53,952 nt of DNA. Source: Leptospiraceae bacterium (lineage in GTDB: Bacteria; Spirochaetota; Leptospiria; Leptospirales; Leptospiraceae). Positions 17,801-24,366 of this stretch are shown here, one piece after another (the stretch's first letter is position 1; every line of letters begins with the position of its first letter). The translations under genes were made by a program, and so were the position numbers. Under the pieces are notes generated by a model, which worked only from the letters and a program-made list of their open reading frames with translations, was not told the origin of the DNA and made no database searches. The stretch covers positions 1 through 53,952 of the forward strand of contig CANGZW010000011.1 of the NCBI GenBank assembly GCA_947458405.1. Direction: 5' to 3'.

Positions 17801-18451
17801 TCAGGCTTTTTTTGAAGTCTGCTTTAAAAGAGTTCCATTTTGATTTGGATCCCCATTTTTGAATACTGCAGAGCCAGCTACGCAAATGTCTACGCCCAAA
17901 CTACTCAATTCTTGGATATTTCCCAAGCCGACACCACCATCAACTTCAAGGAGAATATTCGTTCCCTTGAGTAGCTCTTTTGTTTTCGCGATTTTTTTCA
18001 TTCCACTTTTGACAAAACTTTGTCCATAAAATCCAGGATCCACTGTCATTAGTAGTACTAAGTCGATATAAGGAAGAAGGTTTTCTATTGAAGAGATTGG
18101 TGTGGAAGGATTTAGAGAAATTCCCACTTTAGATCCATTCGCTCGAATATCCTCAGCAAGTCTAACACCAAAAAAGGTGGTCTCAATGTGAAAAGTGATA
18201 TACTCGGGTTGATATTTATAATATTTAGGAACTTCTCTCTCCGGATTGATTACCATGAGATGTACGTCCAGCGGTATATTCGTCAGATTTTTTACTTCAG
18301 AAGTAATAGCTTCCCCAAATGATATTTGTGGTACAAAATTTCCATCCATAACATCCATATGAATATAATCTATTGAGTCATGTTTTAATTGGGGTAATGT
18401 TGTAGAGAGATTTGTAATGCTAGTAGCTAATATAGAAGCAGATATTTTCAT
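17801..18451 (-). CDS. rpe: ribulose-phosphate 3-epimerase
   Basis: 216 residues of TIM-barrel fold. Interconverts ribulose-5-phosphate and xylulose-5-phosphate. Motifs are [13 protein letters not shown] at the start, [16 protein letters not shown] with metal-binding His and catalytic Asp, [24 protein letters not shown] and [10 protein letters not shown] with the second catalytic Asp. It overlaps the PASTA gene by 4 bases. Confidence 0.95.
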
Positions 18452-19464
18452 TTTTTGTAGTCCGATTTATAAGTTATTGAGTTAAGTGAGTCTTTGCCTT
18501 TCATTAAATCTACCCTTACATCACCCACTCTGTAGAATACATATTGAAAATTTTCTCCCCCTTCTAGATCTAAGGATGAAAATATTTCCGAGGAAGGGTT
18601 ATCTGAATCAATATTTTGGAGCTTTGCAGAGTATTTTTCACTGGAAGTAGGTTTGAAAGAGATGGTTTCGTATCCCTGGATATTCTTTTCTTTCAGAGGA
18701 AAAAGTGAAACAGCAAATTGTAGTACATTTCCAACTTTCTCAGACTTAACTATCAATCCATTTTCTCTGCGATCTTTTGTATTTAAGATTTCTTTAATTC
18801 TAAAAGGAATTTTTTGTTTTTGAAGAGAAGTTGCTACAAAAGGAAATGGATTACCTTCTAAGGAATTATTTATGGAAGATGCTTTATCATTTTTATTTCC
18901 ACTTTCAGTAACTAGTAAGTAAATTTTTTCTCTTGTTGAAGTATTTTTACCAGGGAAAGGTATTTGATCTACAACTGTATCCGCACTTAATCCTTCACTA
19001 ATTGGAATATATGTAATACCTCCAATTGTCATACTGACATAAGTATCACCAGAAAGAGTTTTATCTATTAATGCTCTAGCACTATTCAACTGCTGACCTC
19101 TAAAATCCGGTATGATAACCCTATCAACCCCATCATTTACAGTTAAGTACAATTTACTTCCAGATTCCAATTTTTTACCCGGTGAAATTGATTGATAAAG
19201 TATTTCACCATCATTTTTATCTGTGTATCTTTTACTTTCAATTCTAACTTTAAGCCTTAAACGCATTAATTCGTTGTGAACATCAATATAATTTTGACCT
19301 ACTAAATCAGGCATAATAATATTTGTATCACTTTTAGTTCTAACTAAAATTACCATAAAAGCAGATATAAAGAAAAAAAACAATCCTAAACTAAAATATA
19401 GTAGGTATCCAGAAAAAGGCATAATTTTTAAATAATATGATACAGGTTTTTTTTCTTCACTCAT
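18448..19464 (-). CDS. membrane-anchored PASTA-domain protein without kinase
   Basis: 338 residues. A short cytoplasmic N-terminus is followed by one transmembrane helix near 14-42. PASTA domains outside the membrane follow: first about 48-112 ([19 protein letters not shown]), second about 113-190 ([16 protein letters not shown]), and a weaker third about 205-265 ([17 protein letters not shown]). PASTA domains bind muropeptides or cell-wall precursors. There is no Ser/Thr kinase or penicillin-binding domain in this protein. It is embedded between fmt and rpe with 4-base overlaps at both ends, so it is tightly co-expressed with housekeeping genes. A cell-wall role is inferred from the domains. 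Confidence 0.85.
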
Positions 19465-20393
19465 ATAAACATTTCTCCGTTTAGAGGTCTTGAGCCATTG
19501 ATAAAATCACTGGACTTCATTACCTTTTTGTTTTCAAATTGAACTTCATCTAAAACTATAATTTTTTTATTTCCACAAACTACACCAAACGTTTTCTTGT
19601 CTAAAATTTGTAGAGAACCTGTCTTTTCTTCGGAACTCAATTCGGTTTTGGTAGTTTTATAAACATTTAGTCTTTTGTCGCGAAAGCTTGTAAAGCATAT
19701 ATTTCCAGGATTAAAAGCTCTAATTTTATTATGAATCTCTATATCGGAGTAATTAAAATCTAATTTTCTTTCTTCTACTTTAATTTTTTTACAAAATGTT
19801 GCCTTGTTATGATCCTGATCAATGGATTGGAATGGTTTTCCTGAAAAACTCTTTAGTAATCTAATTATCTCAGCTACACCAAGGTTTGTAAGTTTTTCCA
19901 ATAGAGTGCCAAACGTATCACTATCCTCAATATTTACTTTAGCAATAGAAATGATTGATCCCGCATCAAGTTCATCTGTGATATATTGGAGTGTTATTCC
20001 TGTTTCCTTGTAATTATTTAAAATAGCGGCTTGGAGTGGAGATGCACCCCTAAACTCAGGCAAGATACTCCCATGTAAATTAATGGTTTTTCCAACAGGA
20101 AAGTCGAATATTTTTCGCGGGATGATAGAGCCAAAAGCATATACAATATAAATTTCAGCATTGTAAGAATTTATATCTTGTATCGCGGAATCTTCTTTAA
20201 GGGAATTAAACTGTAAAACAGGTATATTATTTTCTCTTGCTAGTCTTTTTACAAATGAAGGAGTGAGTTTTCTATCTCTTCCCTGTGGTTTATCCATATT
20301 GGTAACGACAAAAGAAATCTCAAAACCACTATCAATTAGTGATTTAAGCAAAATTGCTGAATGTTCAGGAGTTCCAAAAAATCCAATTTTCAT
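19461..20393 (-). CDS. fmt: methionyl-tRNA formyltransferase
   Basis: 310 residues. Formylates initiator Met-tRNA using 10-formyl-THF. KIGFFGTPEHSAILLKSLI and NLHGSILPEFRGASPLQAA (with the catalytic Asn and His of the active-site segment) and the C-terminal OB-like domain (IRAFNPGNICFTSF) are present. Deformylase (def) is at 39416. The start lies 23 bases after priA on the same strand. Confidence 0.95.
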   Translation of the reverse strand: MKIGFFGTPEHSAILLKSLIDSGFEISFVVTNMDKPQGRDRKLTPSFVKRLARENNIPVLQFNSLKEDSAIQDINSYNAEIYIVYAFGSIIPRKIFDFPVGKTINLHGSILPEFRGASPLQAAILNNYKETGITLQYITDELDAGSIISIAKVNIEDSDTFGTLLEKLTNLGVAEIIRLLKSFSGKPFQSIDQDHNKATFCKKIKVEERKLDFNYSDIEIHNKIRAFNPGNICFTSFRDKRLNVYKTTKTELSSEEKTGSLQILDKKTFGVVCGNKKIIVLDEVQFENKKVMKSSDFINGSRPLNGEMFI

Positions 20394-20416: not shown

Positions 20417-22375
20417 TTAAACAAGGTCAACAGGGTCAATATCTATTTCAAGATAAACCTGAGATCCTGAGAGTGTAATTATTTTTTTTCTAATTAAATC
20501 ACGAAATTTATTTTGTTCATTTGATTTAATTAAAATATGATATCGAAAGTTGGAATCTATTCTATAAAATGGGCATTCCACAGGGCCTAAAATATATGTG
20601 GAAGGAATTTTTTCTTCTTTTAAAAACTCTTTTAATATTTCTGAAATTTTTTCAATTACCTCTTTAGCTTTTTCTTCTTTTGGTGATCGGGATACAATTC
20701 TAATTAATCTAACAAAAGGGGGAAATCCTAAACTTTTTCTAATTTGAATTTCCTCTTCATAAAATTTATCATAATTTTGATCTTTCGATAATTGTAAAAT
20801 TCTATGATCTGTATTTTGAGTCTCAATGACAACTTCACCTTTTAACTCTCCTCTTCCGGCTCTACCCGCAACCTGTGTTAATAGAGAAAATACCCTTTCC
20901 CCTGCTCTAAAATCGGGAAGTCCCAATCCACTTGCCGCATTGACTACTCCAACAAGAGTAACACCTGGAGCATCCAAACCTTTAGCAATCATTTGCGTAC
21001 CTGTTAAAATATCTAATTCCTTATTTATTAATTTTGAAATTGTTTGGGAGATTACTTCTCTATTCTTGGTAGAATCCTGATCTAATCTTTCAAGTCTTAC
21101 ACCTGGAAATTTTTCTAGAAGATATTCTTCGAGTTTTTGAGTCCCGGCACCCATCAATTCTAAATTATCAAAATTTTCTTTTTGTAATTTTAAAAATTTA
21201 TCTGTATATCCACATAGATGACAGATTACCTTTCCTTTGTTATGAAAACATAAATTCGAAGTACAATTTGGACATTCTAAAAATTTCTTATCTTTTTTAT
21301 TATAGATCAAAGGACTATATCCTCTTCTATTTAACAATAAAATAACCTGTTCCTTTTTATCCAATCTTTGCTTTATTTTAAATAACAGATCTTCTCCGAT
21401 TAATTCTTTATCCTCTTTTTTTTGTACTACATTTACAGTTGATAATACAGAATTTTTGGCTCTTTTTGAGAGGGAATGAAGATTTATTAATCCTTTTTTA
21501 GCATGATAAAATGATTCAAGTGATGGAGTCGCACTTCCTAAAACAAGAGTTGCATGATTCATTTTTATTCTTTGTTGTGCAACCTGTCTTGCATGATATC
21601 TTGGGCTGGAATGCTCTTTGTAAGACATATCATGCTCTTCATCCATTATTATTAGACCCAGATTTTTAACTGGAGCAAAAATTGCACTACGAGTTCCAAT
21701 TACAATTCGTTTCTCTCCTCTCAATAATTGCAAATAATTTTTAAATCTTTCTGAGACTCTTAAATTAGAATGAATGAGTGCTAATTGCTTACCAAAAATT
21801 AATTCTAATCTATGAAGAATTTGAAATGTAAGAGAAATTTCTGGAACCAACAAAATAGCAGACTTTTCAGTCTCGGTAAGTATATGATGAAATAAATGAA
21901 TATATACCTCAGTTTTTCCACTACCTGTAATACCATATAATAAATGAATACTTTCTTTTCCGATAGTTGACTTAATGTTTTCGTAGGATAGGCTTTGCTC
22001 ATCGTTTAATTTTAATAATTCAGGAGAGCCTAATGGTGATGGTTCTGAAAGTTGATTTTTTCTACCTGAGGGTATCATTTTATAGAGGGACTCTCCTAAT
22101 GAAGAAACATAAAAGTCTCTCATCCAGTAGGCTAATTGGATTTGCTCAGCATTTATTATAGGTTCTTTATCAATTTGTCTTTTTATTGTTTTTAATTCAA
22201 ACGTTGGCATATTGAAGTGTATTGCAATTACCAATCCTTCCATTTTTTTGTTTCTTAATTCAAATTCCACCCTACAACCAACTTTTAAATTAGTCATATC
22301 AATTGGAATTTGATAAGTTAAAGTTTCTTCAGATTTAAATGGGATATTTAAAGCAATATCCGCATATTTTATCAA
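20417..22375 (-). CDS. priA: primosomal protein N', replication restart helicase (one zinc site missing)
   Basis: 652 residues. The N-terminal DNA-binding domain starts ADIALNIPF. Walker A is GITGSGKTEVYI, the helicase box is DEEHDMSYKE, and GTRSAIFAP, GSATPSLES and RAGRGELKG are further helicase motifs. Normal PriA binds two zincs with eight Cys in four pairs. Here only the second and third pairs survive (C368/C371 and C385/C388, in CPNC and CHLC), which form one site. The first pair is replaced by Asn359 and Asp362 and the fourth is absent near residue 398. One zinc site is thus lost as a unit. The gene overlaps its upstream neighbour by 4 bases. Confidence 0.95.
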   Translation of the reverse strand: MIKYADIALNIPFKSEETLTYQIPIDMTNLKVGCRVEFELRNKKMEGLVIAIHFNMPTFELKTIKRQIDKEPIINAEQIQLAYWMRDFYVSSLGESLYKMIPSGRKNQLSEPSPLGSPELLKLNDEQSLSYENIKSTIGKESIHLLYGITGSGKTEVYIHLFHHILTETEKSAILLVPEISLTFQILHRLELIFGKQLALIHSNLRVSERFKNYLQLLRGEKRIVIGTRSAIFAPVKNLGLIIMDEEHDMSYKEHSSPRYHARQVAQQRIKMNHATLVLGSATPSLESFYHAKKGLINLHSLSKRAKNSVLSTVNVVQKKEDKELIGEDLLFKIKQRLDKKEQVILLLNRRGYSPLIYNKKDKKFLECPNCTSNLCFHNKGKVICHLCGYTDKFLKLQKENFDNLELMGAGTQKLEEYLLEKFPGVRLERLDQDSTKNREVISQTISKLINKELDILTGTQMIAKGLDAPGVTLVGVVNAASGLGLPDFRAGERVFSLLTQVAGRAGRGELKGEVVIETQNTDHRILQLSKDQNYDKFYEEEIQIRKSLGFPPFVRLIRIVSRSPKEEKAKEVIEKISEILKEFLKEEKIPSTYILGPVECPFYRIDSNFRYHILIKSNEQNKFRDLIRKKIITLSGSQVYLEIDIDPVDLV

Positions 22376-23244
22376 GAAAGTATCCTATTTTTAAAATCAG
22401 TAAGAGTTCTTACAATTTGGAGTTTAATATTTTTTTCTTCTTCCACGGCATTTTTATATTCCGAGGATTCTTTTAAATGTTCTAATTTTTTCTTTTTATC
22501 CTCTAAGCTCAAAACTTTTTCAGGAGATCTTATCACAATACTAGGTATCTCAAAATCTTCAAATTCAAATGGATGTATTTTTTCTAGTAAATTTTCAGCC
22601 TTTTCTATTCCATAATAACTCACAGCCGCTCTCCCTGTGATTATAATTCCTTTTATATTATTACTTTTTACCGTCAATGCTACATGCTCTAAGCAATTTT
22701 TTGACCTCTGCTTCCATTCATCACTTGAAGAATTTACATTTTTAAAATTACACCCTGGAAATTCTTGATAATTTAACTCCCTCATACGTACGGAAAATAC
22801 TTTTTGAACCATTCTATCGAATAAATCTTCTTGGTTTTGTTCTCTAAAGACCTGATTTTTACCTGTTTTAGAAAAAACTTTTTTATTAGGTGAAATTTCT
22901 CCTGTATAATGTAGTACAAGAATTGGAATACTCCCTTGGTGAATAAAACCCCTTATAGCAGAAATTCTATCCATACATTTTTTACATGTTAAATTTCTTG
23001 TTAATTCAGAGACTGAAGGTTTAAAATTTGGAACTAAATTTAATATTTTTTTAGGTGCTGATTTCCATTTTACGTTAAATTCATCGGGTAGCTTTTGTTC
23101 CGCATATTTATTTATAGGAAATTCATCATTTTGAACTACATTTTTCAATTCAGCTAAAATGATTGAATACTTTTCGAGAATTAACCGTTGACTCAATTTT
23201 TTTCCAACCTTAACGTATACAAATTTAATAAAAAATGAATTCAA
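22372..23244 (-). CDS. divergent uracil-DNA-glycosylase-like Fe-S protein (tentative)
   Basis: 290 residues. The overall order resembles family 4 UDG: a Cys-x2-Cys (C87, C90), a strand IPILVLHYTGE where VGEAPG is expected, a third Cys (C165, in EFPGC) where KCRPP occurs, a fourth (C184, in KNCLEHVALTVKS) where the C-x-PFL helix occurs, then GIIITGRAAV like the usual VALGRTA. All four positions that hold a 4Fe-4S cluster in the family are therefore occupied, although the catalytic motif is not conserved. A charged coiled-coil-like tail follows 220. It overlaps priA by 4 bases and seems to be the first gene of the run, which suggests a DNA-repair link. Homology is inferred by eye. Confidence 0.5.
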   Translation of the reverse strand: MNSFFIKFVYVKVGKKLSQRLILEKYSIILAELKNVVQNDEFPINKYAEQKLPDEFNVKWKSAPKKILNLVPNFKPSVSELTRNLTCKKCMDRISAIRGFIHQGSIPILVLHYTGEISPNKKVFSKTGKNQVFREQNQEDLFDRMVQKVFSVRMRELNYQEFPGCNFKNVNSSSDEWKQRSKNCLEHVALTVKSNNIKGIIITGRAAVSYYGIEKAENLLEKIHPFEFEDFEIPSIVIRSPEKVLSLEDKKKKLEHLKESSEYKNAVEEEKNIKLQIVRTLTDFKNRILS

Positions 23245-23409: not shown

Positions 23410-24366
23410 TTACACTAAGATTTCTTTTATTCTTCGCAGATATGGAACGAATTTTTCTAATATATCTGGCAGTTCGTACTCCAATAAATCTCCGGCCATC
23501 ACGATATCATTAATTTCTAGAGATTTTACAACTTGAGATAATAAAGTATTTAGTTTATCAATGGTATCACCTAAAGTTTCTCCTTCAATTTCTATTGAAT
23601 CTAAATTGTATTCAGGAAATCTACCTTTAATAGAAACAAATGAACTCAACATAATATGTAATCTTCCAATAGAGTGATTTAGTAACTCCCCGGCAACAGC
23701 ATCTTTACCGGATTGGAAATTCTCATTGATTCTTATAAATTCTTTTTTTAGAACTTCCATATTATCAGCATAGGTGGAAATAATATCTTTAATTGTTTTT
23801 AAATCTACTCCCAAAATAGAAGTTTTGTTAATTAAAGTCATTGTAAATAACTTTAAGTCTCTCAGATTTTCTAAATAATTTTCTACTGAAGAAATTGAAT
23901 CTAACTTTGAAAAATCATTTGTAATATTATCTATTATTTTTAGAAGATTATTACCTCCAGGGATTGGAGTAATACGACTATAATCTAATTTAAGAAGACT
24001 TTTTGCAGAGTCTAAAACTTCAGAAATCCACTGAACCCCATCCTTTAAATCTCTATTTTCCTTTTCTGTGAGAGAGTCCCTTCCCAATAATGTATTACCA
24101 ACAGTATCAATGTATTTATCTAACTCGATTAATCCAGCAATCAATACATCTAAATTCTCTCCTACATAAAAATCCAATCTGTCAGCAGAATTAATTAAAA
24201 TTGACTTTAACTCATCCTTTTGCATCTCTTTACCATCGACGAGACATTGTAATAAAAATTTCCCTTGGGATTCAGCCCATCGTTTGATTTCTTCATAAAT
24301 ATCAGCTAGGGTCTCTTCTTTCTCAATTCTACTATCTAAAATCTCTTCATTTAAATATATTTTCAT
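23410..24366 (-). CDS. unknown protein co-transcribed with fliD
   Basis: 318 residues, soluble, with no signal peptide. The first about 75 residues form a small alpha/beta unit (MKIYLNEEILDSRIEKEETL, then LQCLVDGKEMQKDEL). The remainder is predicted to be long amphipathic helices. It lies 40 bases after fliD on the same strand and before a terminator, so it probably serves the flagellar filament cap or its export. No FliS or FliT motif is visible, so a FliD-specific chaperone is a guess from position. Function unknown. Confidence 0.65.
   Translation of the reverse strand: MKIYLNEEILDSRIEKEETLADIYEEIKRWAESQGKFLLQCLVDGKEMQKDELKSILINSADRLDFYVGENLDVLIAGLIELDKYIDTVGNTLLGRDSLTEKENRDLKDGVQWISEVLDSAKSLLKLDYSRITPIPGGNNLLKIIDNITNDFSKLDSISSVENYLENLRDLKLFTMTLINKTSILGVDLKTIKDIISTYADNMEVLKKEFIRINENFQSGKDAVAGELLNHSIGRLHIMLSSFVSIKGRFPEYNLDSIEIEGETLGDTIDKLNTLLSQVVKSLEINDIVMAGDLLEYELPDILEKFVPYLRRIKEILV

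Follow-up and report, generated by a model that had tools for sequence, protein, structure and literature searches.

The closest described relatives of the protein treated here are the uracil-DNA glycosylases (UDGs) of family 4, known from the structures of T. maritima TM0511 (1vk2) and of the T. thermophilus (1ui0) and S. tokodaii (4zbx) enzymes, and UdgX, a mycobacterial UDG that cross-links to apurinic/apyrimidinic DNA; the definition of motif A of family 4 and the two motifs of UdgX, GEQPG and KRRIH, are taken from passages of PMC10359453. The protein itself is encoded on the minus strand of a stretch of 53,952 nucleotides from a Leptospiraceae bacterium (class Leptospiria, phylum Spirochaetota; contig CANGZW010000011.1 of assembly GCA_947458405.1), called the window in the following, by an open reading frame (ORF) at 22372..23244 that lies directly in front of priA. 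It shares with the family 4 UDGs the fold (Z about 14-15), the register of the cysteines and the order of helices and strands, and differs from them in lacking the GE(A/G)PG of motif A, the Asn of the pocket and the His of motif B, and in having a long N-terminal extension. The family to which it belongs is named UDGL here. It is clearly a divergent relative of the family 4 iron-sulphur (Fe-S) UDGs and derived from proteins of that kind, and we hold with moderate confidence that it represents the spirochaete priA-linked family 4 UDG after the loss of its uracil chemistry, now serving as an Fe-S accessory of replication restart.

An earlier note, made from the sequence of the window alone, had proposed a possible new branch of Fe-S UDGs that lies next to priA and lacks motif A, and had named the comparison of profile hidden Markov models and structure prediction as checks. 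Fold, profile homology, cysteine register and linkage to priA all support this proposal. The search for priA-linked UDGs covered one phylum, the Spirochaetota, and two groups of sequences, called LINKcanon and UDG2, served for comparison with UDGL. With hhalign, 29 UDGL rows matched 16 canonical UDGs of the phylum (E 5.4e-5, probability 66.5), the alignment placing the four cysteines in register, and 42 UDGL rows matched the 17 rows of LINKcanon at E 4.8e-11 (probability 97); the matches to the half-degenerate UDG2 group and to stand-alone canonical UDGs had E-values of 6.8e-9 and 2.4e-5, respectively. The controls yielded 0.37 for a reversed alignment, 0.019 for the best of 60 column shuffles and 0.53 for DksA. 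Neighbourhoods were read for 15 members of LINKcanon, of which 14 have priA downstream and one, L227, is not beside priA; L035 and L055 complete the set. A search with the UDGL profile also recovered three canonical UDGs from other families, L056 (E 1.3e-5), L035 and L055. The gathering score of PF03167 was passed by two of nine relatives scanned and two more fell below it; the window protein had no match.

The predicted structure points in the same direction as the profiles. An AlphaFold2 model of the window protein, built on 21 sequences, had a mean predicted local distance difference test score (pLDDT) of 83 and a predicted template modelling score (pTM) of 0.70. The best 35 Foldseek matches in the PDB were all family 4 UDGs or UdgX, with 4zbx at the top (E 6.6e-7). 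In structure comparison with VIA, Z was 15.1 against 1vk2 (177 residues at 3.4 A) and about 14 against UdgX; lower values were obtained for the UDG-like domain of a phage DNA polymerase (11.6), for 2d3y, a second UDG from T. thermophilus (10.7), and for Mug, a UNG and TDG (9-10). An orthologue that is only 18% identical to the window protein (L079), modelled on the same sequence set with itself as query, reached Z 14.2 to 1ui0/1ui1. A UDG alpha/beta fold that is nearest to family 4, and not some other fold, is thus strongly supported for UDGL by the models.

The residues that are kept and those that are lost divide sharply. The translated ORF has cysteines exactly at the positions given in the earlier note, namely C87-x-x-C90 (22975..22986), C165 (22750..22752) and C184 (22693..22695), which are the presumed cluster ligands 1 and 2, 3 and 4; here, as for all features of the window below, the strand is minus. 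Cysteines occupy these four columns in 42/42 UDGL orthologues and in 81/81 rows of a joint alignment. Because they sit in the register of the ligands, UDGL is inferred to carry a [4Fe-4S] cluster. That the four cysteines might instead bind zinc or another metal is very improbable in our estimation: the 18 residues that separate C165 and C184 are fewer than the 21 between the third and fourth cysteine of L050, a canonical UDG, which speaks for such a binding site, but the fold is the same and the cysteines stand in the same columns as the ligands of the family 4 UDGs.

The catalytic motifs are gone. The sequence HYTGEISPN is found at residues 112-120, as the earlier note had said, and its HYTGE part (112-116, 22897..22911) aligns with the place of GE(A/G)PG in motif A, without the catalytic Glu; Q160-E161 (22762..22767) stand at the place of the pocket Asn (TNxV/ANIVKC), and R239-S240-P241 (22522..22530) at that of motif B (Y-H-P-S), with Ser replacing His. 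In the joint alignment, the Glu of motif A, the Asn of the pocket and the His of motif B are each present in 38/38 canonical rows and in 0/24 UDGL rows, and all 42 UDGL sequences lack all three in the respective columns; the pocket Asn column holds E, Q or D in 42/42, and the motif B column S, G or R. As text patterns, GE(A/G)PG of motif A and HPS of motif B were each found in 0/42 UDGL sequences. As all three elements have been lost, uracil excision by UDGL is unlikely, and an ordinary active UDG is ruled out by the motif columns. The name uracil-DNA glycosylase given in the earlier note thus holds for the ancestry of the protein and probably not for its activity.

The pocket could have been rebuilt for another base, a lesion or a nucleotide ligand, so that UDGL would be a glycosylase or lesion-binder of new specificity. 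We consider this somewhat unlikely and keep it as a serious rival, because the pocket positions of the families f1/f2, to which the window is counted, are fixed anew and are not drifting: Q160 is found in 26/27, R239 in 25/27 and S240 in 24/27 sequences (position 161 has E in 19 and Q in 8), whereas across residues 84-260 the commonest residue has a mean frequency of 0.51. N84, F167 and W177 are present in 27/27. The rival also has a precedent for changed chemistry among family 4 UDGs in UdgX, as described in passages of PMC10359453, and UDG2 retains an Asn at the place of the motif A Glu and the motif B His, each in 20/20 sequences. However, the new pocket residues differ across the class, with R at position 160 in 15/42 and G at position 240 in 15/42 sequences (these rows are of the f3-f5 type, as in L028/L029), and an acidic or amide residue stands at the position of the motif A Glu in 0/24.

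In the window, the UDGL stop overlaps by 4 nt with the TTG at which the priA ORF begins, which bears out the overlap described earlier, and the neighbour (20417..22375) was confirmed as the replication restart helicase PriA by TIGR00595 (542 bits, cut-off 230). priA follows UDGL directly in 27/27 f1/f2 loci, the window counted, and in 20/20 named loci, two counts that are not independent, as the named loci come from genomes already included in the 61-genome search described below. The gene in front varies: an NtrC-type regulator directly adjoins UDGL in 14/20 f1/f2 loci read (a call for which one regulator and its histidine kinase were domain-scanned), and others have an SH3 or CutA gene or, in the window, a gene of 318 aa that matches no family. 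The statement that UDGL heads the priA operon therefore applies to the window, where 165 nt upstream are free, and not to the 14 relatives' loci that have the NtrC-type gene just upstream. In f3-f5, the gene directly in front of UDGL is DksA-like in 15/15 loci (L111-L125; five calls were scanned with Pfam, the rest made by likeness), and priA is not the neighbour there. UDGL could be a regulatory Fe-S protein tied to transcription through the dksA or NtrC-type module, with priA a bystander in the gene run; the constant dksA of f3-f5 and the NtrC-type genes, which also lie upstream in 19/20 UDG2 loci, speak for this. We nevertheless regard it as unlikely, as the upstream gene of f1/f2 changes while the downstream priA is constant.

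UDGL homologues were found in 42 of 61 related genomes searched. With a 29-sequence profile, UDGL was detected in 42/48 genomes of the class, including 30/30 good genomes, and a draw of 296 genomes from the phylum contained 44 with a match, two of them outside the class and both weak. The 20 named loci, of which 14 are labelled Leptospiraceae or Leptospirales, all stem from metagenome-assembled genomes. The ratio of nonsynonymous to synonymous differences per site (pN/pS) was 0.20-0.34 in nine UDGL pairs and 0.06-0.22 in nine priA pairs; only pN/pS is quoted, as synonymous sites were saturated in 4/9 UDGL pairs. Judged by these ratios, UDGL is under purifying selection that is weaker than that on priA. 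The best match was free of internal stops in 41/42 genomes; the remaining one, G035, shows a single TGA, yet a frame of 240 aa is open there. These data bear on the possibility that UDGL is no more than a paralogue in decay, which has no specific function and persists through the inertia of its operon. Its evolution is faster than that of priA and its catalytic motifs are lost, as would be expected of such a gene, but its presence in all good genomes of the class, the near absence of internal stops, a pN/pS well below 1 and the four invariant cysteines make decay an improbable explanation. No description of the UDGL family was found in the open literature on the family, on priA together with UDG, on UdgX and on inactive UDGs, among the matches listed.

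A family 4-type UDG in front of priA is not confined to the class of the window. Elsewhere in the phylum, such a gene, in some cases canonical and in others half-degenerate, precedes priA in 36/39 neighbourhoods read. The weak matches outside the class (L148/L149) led, with L148 as query, to UDG2, a second group, half-degenerate and drawn from other families of spirochaetes, represented here by 20 of the 44 genomes counted as UDG2. priA lies downstream in 19/20 of its neighbourhoods, in L193 after 400 nt and in L195 after 1.65 kb, and in L194 the contig ends; an NtrC-type gene is upstream in 19/20, the exception being L198. All 20 sequences have the four cysteines, Asn at the place of the motif A Glu (N-x-P) and the motif B His, and 12/20 have the pocket Asn, so that UDG2, by its residues, could still be active. 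The UDG2 loci (L190-L209) also carry upstream, along with the NtrC-type gene, a gene of about 600 aa that is a putative kinase by its look. At L190:3407-5279, priA is split over two open frames that overlap, possibly by a frameshift or an assembly error. An apparent UDG-NtrC fusion in G181 (an open frame of 556 aa) was rejected as read-through in GC-rich DNA, as NtrC is complete in another frame.

Nineteen further UDG neighbourhoods of other families were picked without looking at priA first. priA was downstream in 17 of them (not in L211 and L227; the gap in L225 is 525 nt); 15 have canonical or near-canonical motifs, 14 of these with priA, and four are degenerate or partly so, three of these with priA. 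L223 and L226 have the gene order dksA-udg-priA and thereby bridge the dksA and priA arrangements seen in the class of the window; a single ancestral gene in this order would be the simplest explanation. The run continues in L223 as dksA-udg-priA-def-fmt (L223:4246-9099), and in L228 udg-priA is followed by matches to the same two window genes. One UDG beside priA, L212:4991-5812, has GDSPE in place of GEGPG and keeps Asn and His. L213 and L214, which share the genus code g72 with L212 and are otherwise close to it, retain the motif A Glu. L212 would, on its sequence, represent a recent partial loss and, as Asn and His are kept, may still be active. The idea that catalysis was lost at least twice is unsupported by the approximately unbiased (AU) test, and L212 is its only basis.

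In a quick tree of 156 columns, UDGL formed one clade (99) and UDG2 another (100), the two joined with two other degenerate copies at a support of 91 in the Shimodaira-Hasegawa-like approximate likelihood ratio test (SH-aLRT), and the stand-alone canonical copies of both genome kinds formed one clade (86; 97 without L232). The trees included 24/42 UDGL, 10/20 UDG2 and 9/26 stand-alone sequences of the class, and L211 was kept outside the AU tests. UDGL and LINKcanon have medians of 70 and 75 residues before the CxxC, compared with a median of 17.5 for stand-alone copies from the class. UDGL is inferred to descend from a priA-linked copy, not from a stand-alone one; the case for this orthology is made by gene order, by the length of the N-terminal extension and by profile similarity, because the gene tree does not settle it.

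If the uracil chemistry was lost from UDGL, uracil repair could be carried out by another enzyme of the same cell, and the distribution of other UDGs is consistent with this. The genome of the window has a separate canonical family 4 UDG elsewhere (L050). A canonical family 4 UDG or Ung exists beside the degenerate copy in 34/42 UDGL genomes, 27/44 UDG2 genomes and 2/4 other genomes, and thus a second, canonical UDG or Ung was present in 63/90 genomes with a degenerate copy versus 0/15 genomes with a canonical copy (Fisher p 1.8e-7, uncorrected for phylogeny; the 15 include G056 (L227), the one not beside priA). The table was counted by hand, with a PF03167 match at E <= 1.4e-29 defining canonical family 4 and weak or fragmentary matches (G006, G017, G048, G085) scored as absent; Ung was sought in 14/42 UDGL genomes, including each of the nine that lack a canonical family 4 match. 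A further type of UDG, with GQAPG and HPSGLN, occurs in five genomes of the class (L129-L132, L134) and lies outside the UDGL, UDG2 and canonical groups.

The scenario that we favour for UDGL is the following. An ancestral priA-linked UDG would have shed its uracil chemistry and kept its fold and the four cysteines, leaving uracil repair to the stand-alone canonical UDG. UDGL, as its residues suggest, would retain a [4Fe-4S] cluster, bind DNA without excising uracil and have an accessory part in PriA-dependent replication restart. It might, for instance, mark DNA that is single-stranded or damaged where forks have stalled, with an affinity for DNA that is perhaps set by the redox state of its cluster. 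A bolder version, which we offer only tentatively, is that a family 4 UDG of the Spirochaetota had for a long time served PriA as an Fe-S partner, in a second role apart from catalysis. This role would have persisted while the glycosylase activity was shed in the class of the window and either weakened or shed elsewhere in the phylum. What remained in the class would be an Fe-S pseudo-glycosylase common to all of it and a new kind of replication-restart factor, possibly redox-switched.

Several results weigh against this scenario. The window protein alone had no match in Pfam or NCBIfam, and among PDB sequences it matched two chance antibody chains (E 1.6-2) and nothing else. The 29-row UDGL profile recovered no UDG from the PDB sequences, a profile of the eight closest sequences matched canonical UDGs at an insignificant E of 0.14, and the N-terminal extension alone gave a weak profile match (E 0.007). 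In the AU test, kinship of UDGL with the stand-alone copies was not rejected (p 0.72), and the tree constrained in this way was even better than the unconstrained tree; a single origin for all the degenerate forms included was not rejected either (p 0.67). The stretches fetched around UDGL in f3-f5 contained no priA, and the linkage is absent there. Furthermore, in 27/90 genomes that carry a degenerate copy, no additional canonical family 4 UDG or Ung was found, some of these genomes being incomplete. Lastly, in D. radiodurans Nth2 the cycling of the cluster is reported to be independent of DNA, so that the redox effect is not general (passages of PMC9266487).

The locus in the window can be described as follows. 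Positions 22372-23244 contain one open frame on the minus strand, and the plus-strand frame there is interrupted by many stops. Translation from the first TTG would yield 290 aa; it probably begins at the TTG of codon 17 (23196), because the orthologues hold almost nothing opposite residues 4-19 and residues 1-15 have a pLDDT below 50. The likeliest coding part is thus 22372..23196, with 274 aa, in which the N-terminal extension before the first Cys (22996..23196) comprises a predicted helix (14-38) followed by a poorly conserved linker. priA is followed by fmt, encoding methionyl-tRNA formyltransferase (19461..20393, TIGR00460), by a gene for a PASTA-repeat protein (18448..19464, a partial NF033483 match under its cut-off) and by rpe, encoding ribulose-phosphate 3-epimerase (17801..18451, TIGR01163). 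The 318-aa gene upstream (23410-24366), between fliD and UDGL, has no Pfam or NCBIfam match.

Reports on other organisms show that the elements of the favoured scenario are not without parallel. The interactome of the SSB C-terminus in B. subtilis includes both Ung and PriA, according to parts of PMC3000357. Fe-S glycosylases, a family 4 UDG being one of those studied, are reported in passages of PMC9266487 to be redox-active, with tighter binding to DNA in the oxidised state, and vaccinia D4 has a replication role that is independent of catalysis (parts of PMC1936997). By analogy, these reports are precedents and not evidence on UDGL. If the scenario is true, a glycosylase fold and its cluster ligands can persist through the history of a class without glycosylase chemistry, which bears on the open question of the purpose of the [4Fe-4S] cluster in repair glycosylases, and a candidate partner of the primosome would be named in bacteria outside the usual model species.

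Among the described systems, UdgX shares the Fe-S fold with UDGL (Z about 14), but its GEQPG motif A and the KRRIH of its R-loop (motifs from passages of PMC10359453) are missing from the window protein, which rules out that the two are identical. The family-A DNA polymerase of phage phiLo, with its UDG-like N-terminal domain (9qhs; Z 11.6 to UDGL), is an example of a UDG fold in a replication machinery. Vaccinia D4, which belongs to the UNG type and is a UDG that acts as a processivity factor, and the phiLo domain are of other families and have other partners than UDGL. The priA-linked canonical UDGs of the Spirochaetota, such as L213-L223, resemble UDGL in their place before priA and in their long N-terminal extension, and the set that contains them is the best profile match of UDGL; however, they keep the catalytic signatures (GEGPC in L213), of which UDGL has none. 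UDG2 resembles UDGL in having priA downstream, the four cysteines, no GE(A/G)PG and, in common with many loci of f1/f2, an NtrC-type gene upstream, and it is unlike UDGL in its N-x-P at motif A, its motif B His and, in part of the group, its pocket Asn. Thus, by the motifs that define the family, UDGL would not be classed as a family 4 UDG, although it is clearly derived from that kind.

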